A stretch of DNA of 56,009 bases from an uncultured Bacteroidales bacterium (GTDB lineage Bacteria > Bacteroidota > Bacteroidia > Bacteroidales > Muribaculaceae), in contig CACWID010000031.1 of the NCBI GenBank assembly GCA_902760865.1, positions 1-56,009 of the forward strand. Direction: 5' to 3'. Under the pieces are notes generated by a model, which saw only the letters and a list, made by a program, of their open reading frames with translations, was not told where the DNA came from and did not search any database. The position numbers and the translations under genes were made by a program. Positions 16,599-18,683 of this stretch are shown here, in pieces (within the stretch, counting starts at the first letter, position 1; each line of letters begins with the position of its first letter).

Positions 16599-16630
16599 CT
16601 TGCATCTTAACTCGCAATGTTATATCTTTG
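16599..16630 (+). promoter_or_regulatory. Promoter of the radical SAM operon
   Basis: CTTG, 20-nt spacer, TATCTTTG. The predicted transcription start is about 12 nt before the ATG at 16649, giving a very short leader. Confidence 0.65.
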
Positions 16631-16648
16631 CCGAATAATAATTGATGC

Positions 16649-17722
16649 ATGATGAATGTAAATCAACAACAGTGTCTGGAAATCACCCGCGACCTGGTGG
16701 AGCAGCTCAAGCGGGAGCATCCCTTGCGGCAGCTGTTCTGGGAATGCACCCTGCGCTGCAACATGGCGTGCAGGCACTGCGGCAGTGACTGCCTGAAGGT
16801 CTCTGCCGTTCCCGACATGCCTCTGGCCGACTTCCTGCCGGTGCTCGACGAGGTGGCGGCACACTGCAATCCACAGCAAGTACTGGTGAACACTGTGGGA
16901 GGCGAGCCGCTGGTGCGTCCCGACCTGATGGACTGCGGTCGCGCCATACGCGAGCGCGGTTTCATGTGGGGTTTTGTGACCAACGGCATCACCCTGGACC
17001 GCTCTGTCGCCCGCGAGCTGGCCCAGGCAGGCATCAACTCGCTGTCCATCGATGTGGACGGCACGCACGACGACCACAACTGGCTGCGCAACTCCGCCAT
17101 CGGCTTCGACCGCGCCATGCGGGCCGTGGAAGCCGTGCAGACCATTCCCCACCTCACCTGGGACATCATCACCTGCGTGAACAGCCGCAACATCAACCAC
17201 CTGGAAGAACTCAAGCAGCTGCTCATCGAGGCGGGCGTCACCCATTGGCGCTGCTTCACCATCATCCCCATGGGACGCGCTGCCGACGACGAGAGCCTGC
17301 AACTCACCGACGAGCAGTTCCGCGACCTGCTCAACTTCATCATCCTCACCCGCCGTGAGGGCAAAATACACCTGAGCTATGCCTGCGAGGGCTACCTCGG
17401 TGCTTATGAGGGGCTTGTGCGCGACTATTTCTACAACTGCCAGGCAGGGCTCACGGTGGCAAGTGTGCGCGCCGACGGCGCCATCTCAGGTTGCCTGAGC
17501 ATCCGCAGCGACTACAACCAGGGCAACATCTATCGCGACAGTTTCTGGGACGTGTGGGAGAACCGCTTCGAACAGTACCGTGACCGCGAGTGGATGCGCC
17601 GCGGTGTGTGCAGTGACTGTGAAGTGTTCCGTTACTGCCAGGGCAACGGGTTCCACCTGCGCGACGGCAACGGCGACCTGATGGTGTGCCACTACAACCG
17701 ACTGAAGAATATCAAACTCTAA
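16649..17722 (+). CDS. Radical SAM/SPASM maturase, rSAM/lipoprotein-system type (TIGR04133-like)
   Basis: 357 residues. The radical SAM cluster motif is Cys37-x3-Cys41-x2-Cys44 within ECTLRCNMACRHCGSDC, followed by GGEP at 84-87 for SAM binding. The C-terminal SPASM domain has Cys264, Cys282, Cys321-x2-Cys324-x5-Cys330 and Cys347, enough for two auxiliary iron-sulphur clusters. The phrases RQLFWECTLRCN, FTIIPMGRAADD and FRYCQGNG match what I remember of the Bacteroidetes family TIGR04133, whose members are thought to modify a partner protein. The known partner of that family is a small lipoprotein; here the next gene, 14 nt downstream, encodes a different kind of protein. The chemistry is unknown. 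Confidence 0.88.
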   Translation: MMNVNQQQCLEITRDLVEQLKREHPLRQLFWECTLRCNMACRHCGSDCLKVSAVPDMPLADFLPVLDEVAAHCNPQQVLVNTVGGEPLVRPDLMDCGRAIRERGFMWGFVTNGITLDRSVARELAQAGINSLSIDVDGTHDDHNWLRNSAIGFDRAMRAVEAVQTIPHLTWDIITCVNSRNINHLEELKQLLIEAGVTHWRCFTIIPMGRAADDESLQLTDEQFRDLLNFIILTRREGKIHLSYACEGYLGAYEGLVRDYFYNCQAGLTVASVRADGAISGCLSIRSDYNQGNIYRDSFWDVWENRFEQYRDREWMRRGVCSDCEVFRYCQGNGFHLRDGNGDLMVCHYNRLKNIKL

Positions 17723-17736
17723 CACATAGCACTATT

Positions 17737-18624
17737 ATGAAGAAGAAAAACAAGAACCAATCGCGGAAATCGATCACCGCTGTGGGTGCAGTAGTCGCTG
17801 CGGGCCTCACGCCAGGCATTGTCACCGGCACACCGCTCCCGCTCCCAGAGCCGCTGAGCTCCGACATCAATCTCACGGCTGCCGATGTAGTTTCCATCAA
17901 TGGTGAAATGTACGACTTCGAAGACCTTTTCGCAATGAATCAGGGCGATCCCGTCTCGGTGGACCAGACCTTGGTTGTCGTCTATGGCTCGCCGAAAGCT
18001 ATTAAGAAAATGGAGGAGAAGAAGAAAAAGGAGGAGAAGAAGAAGAAAAAGGAGGAGAAGAAGAAGAAAAAGGAGGAGGAAAAGAAGAAAAAGGAGGAGA
18101 AGAAGAAAGACAAAGACAAAAAGAAGAAAAACGACAAGGGCCAAGAGATGAGAGAATGGCAGATTGCCGATTCTGCCGCGAGAGAGGAAAAGAGGCAGAT
18201 CCAAGAAATGGACGAGCTCAAAGCAGCACGTGAAAAAGCTCGCCGCGACTCCATTGAACGTGTCATGCAACGAGAATATAAACTCGTCTATGGCCCGCCT
18301 CGTCCCTCGTATGAATCATCAGATCCTGAACAAGTGCGCCTCGAGATTGCCGAATACAGTAAGGATGAAGCTATTGCTTATGTCGAGAGCAAAATCATAG
18401 CTTACCTTGACAACATCTCTGATATGGGTGTGCGTTTCCGCGGCGAGGAAAGAAAAGTATTCTATAGCAAGACTGAATTGGATTCCGATGACAAGACACG
18501 TCTGATCGAAGAGGTAGAGCGCAGCTTTGGTGTGCAACTGACAGAAGAAATGATGGAGCAATTGAACACTCCGAATCGTCTCGCCCAGTTCATCGTTGAG
18601 GTTATTAAACCTGCCAACAAGTAA
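17737..18624 (+). CDS. Unrecognised protein: VYGxP motifs, Lys/Glu helix and acyl-carrier-like C-terminus; candidate rSAM substrate
   Basis: 295 residues. Order: a basic start (MKKKNKNQSRK), a hydrophobic segment (13-30, ITAVGAVVAAGLTPGIVT), Pro-rich linker, a small region with ADVVSINGEMYDFEDLFAMN (49-68), motif VYGSP (82-86), a Lys/Glu tract (90-133) continuing as a charged helix to about 180, motif VYGPP (184-188), then residues 205-291. That last part lines up with acyl carrier proteins: KIIAYL, then LDS250 followed 14 residues later by Phe in EEVERSFGV, then LTEEMMEQLNTPNRLAQFI. Ser250 would be the phosphopantetheine site, but the usual Leu after it is Asp. The hydrophobic segment suggests export or anchoring. 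The gene is 14 nt behind the radical SAM gene. The ACP relation and substrate role are inference. Confidence 0.7.
   Translation: MKKKNKNQSRKSITAVGAVVAAGLTPGIVTGTPLPLPEPLSSDINLTAADVVSINGEMYDFEDLFAMNQGDPVSVDQTLVVVYGSPKAIKKMEEKKKKEEKKKKKEEKKKKKEEEKKKKEEKKKDKDKKKKNDKGQEMREWQIADSAAREEKRQIQEMDELKAAREKARRDSIERVMQREYKLVYGPPRPSYESSDPEQVRLEIAEYSKDEAIAYVESKIIAYLDNISDMGVRFRGEERKVFYSKTELDSDDKTRLIEEVERSFGVQLTEEMMEQLNTPNRLAQFIVEVIKPANK
18013..18111 (+). repeat. Tandem 21-nt purine repeat encoding the Lys/Glu tract
   Basis: Units begin with GAGGAG at 18013, 18031, 18052, 18073 and 18094 (18 nt, then 21 nt each), nearly all A and G on the plus strand. All length steps are multiples of three, so unit gain or loss changes helix length without a frameshift. 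Confidence 0.85.
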
Positions 18625-18640
18625 CAACCACTCACAACAC

Positions 18641-18683
18641 AAGCCATCAGAACAACAGACCAATCTGATTGTTCTGACGGCTT
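18641..18683 (+). terminator. Hairpin terminator after the radical SAM operon
   Basis: A 15-nt stem with one mismatch (AAGCCATCAGAACAA against TTGTTCTGACGGCTT) whose loop itself contains CAGA/TCTG, 16 nt after the stop. The following bases (ATGCATTCCTC) are not a strong T-run, so efficiency is uncertain. Confidence 0.6.

Follow-up and report, generated by a model that had tools for sequence, protein, structure and literature searches.

A radical SAM enzyme paired with an exported-type protein carrying Tyr-Gly motifs in a Muribaculaceae genome: a candidate splicease-like system

The locus

The sequence in this study, referred to as the window, is a stretch of 56,009 nucleotides (nt) from an uncultured Bacteroidales bacterium of the Muribaculaceae (assembly GCA_902760865.1, contig CACWID010000031.1). 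It contains a gene for a radical S-adenosylmethionine (SAM) enzyme of the NCBIfam family TIGR04133 and, 14 nt further on (enzyme stop at 17722, ATG at 17737), a gene for a partner protein of exported type in which the motif Val-Tyr-Gly-x-Pro (VYGxP) occurs twice (Table 1). It is proposed that the enzyme is a splicease-like maturase and the partner its substrate, with tyramine being excised at VYG in the cytoplasm before export, a reading that sequence comparison places at a probability of roughly 0.55. The gene pair, its linkage, an invariant Tyr-Gly (YG) in the partners, an X-Tyr-Gly (XYG) core shared with the precursors adjacent to TIGR04103 genes, and the grouping of the enzymes in a phylogenetic tree are direct observations.

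Table 1. Features of the two-gene unit, with coordinates in the window.
Feature	Position	Strand	Detail
TATCTTTG	16623..16630	+	fits the Bacteroidota -7 element TAnnTTTG; 18 nt 5' of the enzyme ATG; the match alone is no proof
TIGR04133 radical SAM/SPASM enzyme gene	16649..17722	+	357 amino acids
Partner gene, exported-type protein, proposed substrate	17737..18624	+	295 amino acids; no family over cut-off among the matches listed (13 Pfam; 25 of 28 NCBIfam)
N-terminal Lys-rich and hydrophobic segment (GAVVAAGLTPG), putative export or membrane segment	17737..17829	+	sequence and alignment
LTAADVVSINGEMYDFEDLFAMN block, proposed recognition element	17872..17940	+	T47, A48, A49, V52 and G56 unchanged across the 28 aligned partners
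VYGSP, first proposed modification site	17980..17994	+	residues 82-86; Y83 and G84 invariant in 28/28; segment of low predicted confidence
Lys/Glu-rich helix, spacer between sites, coded by a 21-nt tandem repeat (x4.9)	18012..18115	+	short spacer at the same place in loci L012 and L013
VYGPP, second proposed modification site	18286..18300	+	residues 184-188; overlaps low-confidence residues 181-185
C-terminal acyl-carrier-like domain, diverged	18304..18621	+	family profile; weak match of the window copy
Strong hairpin 3' of the partner gene	18641..18683	+	-23.4 kcal/mol, z -7.28; likely transcript end

The enzyme and its partner

The enzyme scores 518 bits against the TIGR04133 model (cut-off 425; E=1e-155), with residues 6-353 aligned to model positions 3-350 of 350, and also matches the Pfam domains Radical_SAM and SPASM, the latter over its cut-off (E=8.9e-8). 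The CxxxCxxC motif consists of Cys37, Cys41 and Cys44, and seven cysteines are located towards the C-terminus (246, 264, 282, 321, 324, 330 and 347). An earlier note on this DNA, made from the sequence alone, had described a maturase-type radical SAM gene followed at 14 nt by an exported-type partner, and the open reading frames (ORFs), the three cysteines and the family match bear this out. The family is a common one: of 295 Bacteroidales genomes sampled, 61 hold a match above the cut-off. Comparison of the enzyme sequence with the PDB returned four weak radical SAM matches, with no splicease among them.

In the AlphaFold model of the partner, residues 90-179 form a single helix, with ten-residue blocks between 101 and 170 at a predicted local distance difference test score (pLDDT) of 91-97, and VYGSP sits within a low-confidence segment (70-88). 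Together with the 21-nt repeat and the ORF itself, this confirms the arrangement noted previously, in which the two motifs flank a Lys/Glu-rich helix of about 90 residues.

The distinct C-terminal domain that had also been noted is acyl-carrier-like, as evidenced by a family profile of the domain (A3) that matches acyl carrier proteins in the PDB at E=1.2e-16. The window copy alone falls below the Pfam PP-binding (PF00550) cut-off of 20.8 bits, at 19.2 bits and E=0.0015; PP-binding matches 10 of the 28 aligned partner homologues at E<=0.01, the best at 1e-11. The model of the domain has a mean pLDDT of 79.3, and in a Foldseek search most titles among the matches listed are carrier proteins or, by interpretation, synthases and complexes holding one, with none at E<=0.001. 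The serine motif DSL/DSI is kept in five homologues (L007, L011, L014, L025 and L035), where the window copy has DSD; these are exported-type proteins with the domain at their end, and it would be unusual for an acyl carrier to lie beyond the cytoplasm. In 11 of the 28 homologues, TonB_C takes the place of the acyl-carrier-like domain. The folded domains of the partners vary and the tag is constant.

Linkage to the enzyme and conservation of Tyr-Gly

A profile of the N-terminal part of the partner (A2; 25 rows, all from linked copies) was searched against 61 congeneric whole genomes, giving 47 matches in 26 of them, a few of these matches being fragments of a single broken or long frame. All 47 share a contig with a TIGR04133 gene at a distance of no more than 2,971 nt, which favours the expectation that homologues of the partner always occur near the enzyme. 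At L038, two window-type partner copies downstream of the radical SAM gene break off inside the FDELY block or shortly beyond it, and a further partner with RYGVP and YYGVP is found 1.6 kb on.

Thirty window-type partners were selected by leader pattern only, with YG not used, and YG is present in all 30. Twenty-eight were aligned; the two left out, which also have YG, are a copy truncated where its locus ends and a copy with a double domain. The invariant columns are the five residues of the TAAxxVxxxG block, the Tyr and Gly of the first motif (Table 1), and leader residues, of which AAG..G belonged to the picking pattern, so that their invariance is no test. The earlier expectation that YGxP is conserved among homologues thus stands for YG and in part for Pro, since Pro at +2 is frequent and not fixed in window-type partners (exceptions are MYGVR and RYGAW). 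The window partner has V as the residue before YG (X), partners of the TonB_C type have K, R or L there, and several of the acyl-carrier type have M or V.

The tag was also followed across TIGR04133 loci generally, where the partner is mostly a lipoprotein-like protein encoded upstream with CYGTP, EYGTP or VYGPP. In a discovery set of 66 loci, the rule required an adjacent same-strand ORF with YG, whether or not it had an export signal, under which a few chance ORFs are possible, and 62 loci had such an ORF; by hand, L029 and L038 have a YG ORF further off and L061 ends inside the gene. For the held-out set, the enzyme model alone was used to draw another 69 loci, in genomes of the class and the order. 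With the rule fixed, an exported adjacent ORF was found at 60 of the 69, of which 55 contain YG and 50 contain YGxP, a count in which any one of several qualifying ORFs sufficed and which somewhat favours matches. The background, 97 mechanical ORFs of at least 300 amino acids totalling 44,036, holds 137 YG and 3 YGxP, predicting 0.35 YG and 0.0095 YGxP per ORF of held-out length, or about 0.6 YGxP in 60. Nine held-out loci have no exported adjacent ORF (L220, L223, L231, L240, L248, L252, L256, L261 and L263), but at L231 and L256 a partner with YG lies slightly further off, and at L220, L248 and L261 the enzyme is near a contig end. Five have an exported adjacent ORF without YG (L208, L227, L260, L262 and L264). 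Three loci in these two groups, L262, L263 and L264, are weak enzyme matches far below the TIGR04133 cut-off. Next to the enzyme at L260 is a lipoprotein with CYASQ, and another lipoprotein further up has CYGSP.

The position of the motif raises the question of whether YGxP could be a sorting or structural signal of exported Bacteroidota proteins, independent of catalysis by the neighbouring enzyme. A simple lipobox pattern recognised 64 lipoproteins, and their Tyr often lies near the lipidated Cys, immediately after it in 23 and at a distance of 16 or less in 49. However, the motif of window-type partners is far from the N-terminus with the enzyme still adjacent in 47 of 47, and YGxP is rare in the background ORFs, making a sorting signal a very improbable explanation.

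The earlier note had put forward residues near the FEDLFAMN block as a possible modified site. The block is variable and TAAxxVxxxG just before it is invariant, so that this stretch seems to serve in recognition rather than as a site of modification. The L021 partner, which is without the hydrophobic segment, retains TAADEVQID, with N at its G56 position. A related possibility is that YGxP is itself a recognition or docking tag only, with modification elsewhere, for example in the TAAD/FDEL block or on the helix Lys residues. Recognition would equally explain the tight linkage of motif and enzyme, and TAAxxVxxxG is just as invariant in window-type partners, but TAAxxV occurs in one of 34 lipoprotein-like discovery partners (L019, which is really window-type) and in none of the 55 held-out loci, therefore YG is the feature common to the partner types. 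Additionally, three YGxP motifs are found in each of the L034, L041 and L046 partners, and a repeated motif suits sites better than a single docking tag. Docking alone is thus improbable, if less so than a sorting signal. The TAAD/FDEL block was set aside as the modified site, TAAxxV being missing from lipoprotein partners.

Comparison with spliceases and other radical SAM families

The link to spliceases is new relative to the earlier note. The splicease reaction is described as part of a tyrosine being cut out of a protein (PMC10533398, PMC10373908, PMC9415263), with PlpXY acting on an X-Y-G motif (PMC10533398). Tags based on the PlpA2 core read PIRP(L/G)YGLPI, and of the insertions into FtsZ tabulated two were spliced, both GYGLPI (PMC10533398). 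PlpX is filed under IPR026482 (PMC11002830). A PlpX-type splicease is defined by tyramine excision (-135.08 Da) with an alpha-keto-beta-amino acid product. A pattern search of the genome contigs for the PlpA2 core gave no matches.

PlpX was therefore represented by a TIGR04103 locus on a Nostoc plasmid, and 80 more cyanobacterial TIGR04103 loci were added (81 in total). On the plasmid, the TIGR04103 gene lies 3' of a Nif11 precursor ending GGRGSIALYGLPPELF (ALYGLPPELF) and is followed by a 71-amino-acid ORF in the PlpY position. A small ORF with GG and then YG is present in 77 of the 81 loci under a loose rule that requires YG, and a separate YG-requiring filter retained 67 of 81; some rows in each are no precursors. 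X is L or M in 135 of the 196 YG sites at these loci, and an ORF of 45-130 amino acids is located at the stop of the radical SAM gene in 55 of 79 cyanobacterial TIGR04103 loci (loose rule). X-Y-G is common to both families and Pro is mostly a TIGR04133 trait.

Against the TIGR04103 model the window enzyme scores 128 bits, far from the cut-off of 725, and so falls outside that family. With phmmer, it scores 99-132 bits to cyanobacterial TIGR04103 proteins, 109-120 to GDL motif maturases (TIGR03913), 83-92 to MftC and 57 to PqqE. A tree of 59 rows, rooted on PqqE and with long branches present, supports TIGR04133 (26 rows) at 100/100 and joins it with TIGR04103 and TIGR03913, together with L069, L068 and L169/L170/L172, at 100/99; MftC, AhbD-like, TIGR04053 and PqqE rows fall outside this clade. 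TIGR04545 exceeded its cut-off in 0 of 61 and TIGR04103 in 0 of 148 Bacteroidota genomes. Four Bacteroidota radical SAM proteins (L169, L170, L171 and L172) score 177-205 bits to TIGR04103; the short stretches inspected at these loci hold no obvious XYG precursor.

The system shares with PlpX-type spliceases a putative XYG substrate next to a radical SAM gene, the possibility of several sites per substrate, a SPASM radical SAM enzyme and proximity in the tree. It differs in having as proposed substrate a protein that is exported or lipid-anchored and not a Nif11/NHLP peptide with a GG site, in that Pro at +2 is far commoner, that the Cys set is different and that the family is separate. It is proposed to work like a splicease system while lying outside the PlpX family.

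The nearest described arrangement is TIGR04133 with TIGR04134 (NCBIfam 'radical SAM-associated putative lipoprotein'), which likewise has an exported neighbour whose YGxP is close to its anchor (examples are L065, L066 and L054). The window partner, on the other hand, lacks Cys throughout its N-terminal part, is encoded downstream and not upstream, and has two motifs, a long Lys/Glu spacer and an acyl-carrier-like domain where TIGR04134 has a CarboxypepD_reg-like domain. TIGR04134 (cut-off 39.8 bits) gave no match in the window genome, but the control genomes were silent too, with members found in other genomes; it is also missing from the NCBIfam matches listed for the partner. A plasmid of the spirochaete Treponema saccharophilum (L065:3565-5041) encodes TIGR04133 and a TIGR04134-type lipoprotein, with CYGMP at the lipobox, beside an Mpi-family invertase, an arrangement that suggests transfer between phyla.

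TIGR03913, whose members accompany DUF1843 peptides, belongs to the same supported clade, and X-Tyr is found near the N-terminus of its peptides in L153, L154 and L069; these are small peptides, however, with Met, Ala or Gly after Tyr, and YGxP was not seen in them. A plasmid of Aureibacter (L069:3144-5347) carries three DUF1843 peptides with LYAAG, MYAAS and PYGAG near the N-terminus, a radical SAM gene grouping with TIGR03913, and then a methyltransferase. MftC, whose Tyr is C-terminal in its substrate, acts on a Tyr next to Val, as is proposed for the window enzyme, but scores lower to it and lies outside the clade. It decarboxylates the Tyr and bridges it to the adjacent Val (PMC8326336).

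Proposed modification and its alternatives

In the reading preferred here, the enzyme would recognise the N-terminal block LTAADxVxIxG of the partner before export and act on the Val-Tyr-Gly of each VYGxP, leaving a ketoamide. The window partner would then bear a pair of electrophilic ketoamides that flank the Lys/Glu helix. That the partner is a substrate modified at YGxP, as the earlier note had proposed, gains support from the linkage and from YG conservation, and the chemical modification itself is inferred.

A number of observations weigh against splicing of this kind. Across TIGR04133 partners, the X of XYG is widely variable, and in the 23 lipoproteins with Tyr directly after the lipobox Cys, X falls in an odd place. 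No YG partner was found at L045 of the discovery set or, unexplained, at the held-out loci L223, L240 and L252, and the lipoproteins adjacent to the enzyme at L208, L227 and L260 have no YG. Conversely, a TIGR04134 lipoprotein with EYGCP (L268:1483, G092:C135) has no TIGR04133 gene in the surrounding 6.5 kb. At TIGR04103 loci, YG.P accounts for 31 of 196 sites, so that xP is atypical there, and TIGR04133 is not nested in TIGR04103; its long branch (1.6) is placed next to a clade in which TIGR03913 is included as well. TIGR04103 is presumed to be the family of PlpX (IPR026482), and the Nostoc gene stands in for PlpX in the comparison. Spliceases work with PlpY, and at the window locus the enzyme has no PlpY-like gene as a neighbour. 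The canonical SPASM pattern is CX9-15GX4C ... CX2CX5CX3C ... C, and the seven-Cys SPASM region of the earlier note has its seven cysteines in a noncanonical set, with CX2CX5CX3C in 0 of 26 TIGR04133 rows versus 18 of 18 TIGR04103 rows. Cys48, Cys176 and Cys246 are family-specific, each in 26 of 26 TIGR04133 rows, and Cys246 is extra to the canonical set; the auxiliary clusters may therefore differ. Finally, LYG versions of the PlpA2 tag in FtsZ were unspliced (PMC10533398).

The genome of L268 has two enzyme matches elsewhere, and its EYGCP lipoprotein is possibly modified in trans.

Several of these features would suit a different radical chemistry at the YGxP Tyr, be it a cross-link of the three-residue cyclophane type that ties the Tyr ring or side chain to a neighbour, epimerisation or side-chain cleavage. 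Cross-links are the product of many SPASM peptide maturases, the TIGR04133-specific Cys set could mean a different reaction, the family is sister to TIGR04103 and not within it, and Pro at +2 is common with TIGR04133 and rare beside TIGR04103. However, a Cbeta cross-link at the residue between YG and P cannot be general, because residues differ freely at that position, with Gly in 4 of the 124 YGxP sites. Phe and Trp almost never replace the Tyr either, with YG.P 124 times and FG.P and WG.P once each in 109 partner proteins (a set chosen for holding YG), and all 28 aligned partners have Gly following the Tyr, as XYG splicing requires. Other chemistry is thus judged unlikely, and is nevertheless the strongest of the alternatives.

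If tyramine excision does take place, the ketoamide would after export lie in flexible sequence, close to the anchor or ahead of the folded domain. Protease inhibition has been reported for the beta-residues of spliced peptides (PMC10373908), and because of this a displayed ketoamide might inhibit proteases covalently and reversibly, X serving as P1, the least confident step of the proposal. It is also tentatively suggested, with somewhat more doubt than belief, that host genomes place an XYG(xP) warhead tag before unrelated modules (CarboxypepD_reg, TonB_C, acyl-carrier-like domains and short tails), where X would set the target protease and the two warheads of the window protein would be spaced by its 90-residue helix.

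Transcription and genomic context

TAnnTTTG is the Bacteroidota -7 promoter consensus, and given this element 5' of the enzyme and the strong hairpin 3' of the partner, the two genes probably form a single transcript. The element occurs 36 times over the whole window versus 14 expected from shuffles, consistent with Bacteroidota promoters. The neighbours look unrelated: upstream lie genes for a resistance-nodulation-division efflux adaptor and an outer-membrane protein, and downstream, on the opposite strand, is an aminotransferase-like gene.

Significance

A literature search found no paper naming TIGR04133, TIGR04134 or 'radical SAM-associated ... lipoprotein', with a coverage that did not include Scott et al. 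2022 (Chem), where overlap is possible; a search for VYGPP with radical SAM likewise found none. A common but orphan radical SAM family of the Bacteroidales gains a concrete candidate substrate motif and a reaction proposal. Were the proposal true, these bacteria would display genetically encoded electrophiles on exported proteins, which could lead to covalent protease inhibitors and supply splice-tag labelling with natural protein substrates. The findings suggest, but do not prove, that these bacteria put reactive sites on the proteins they secrete.

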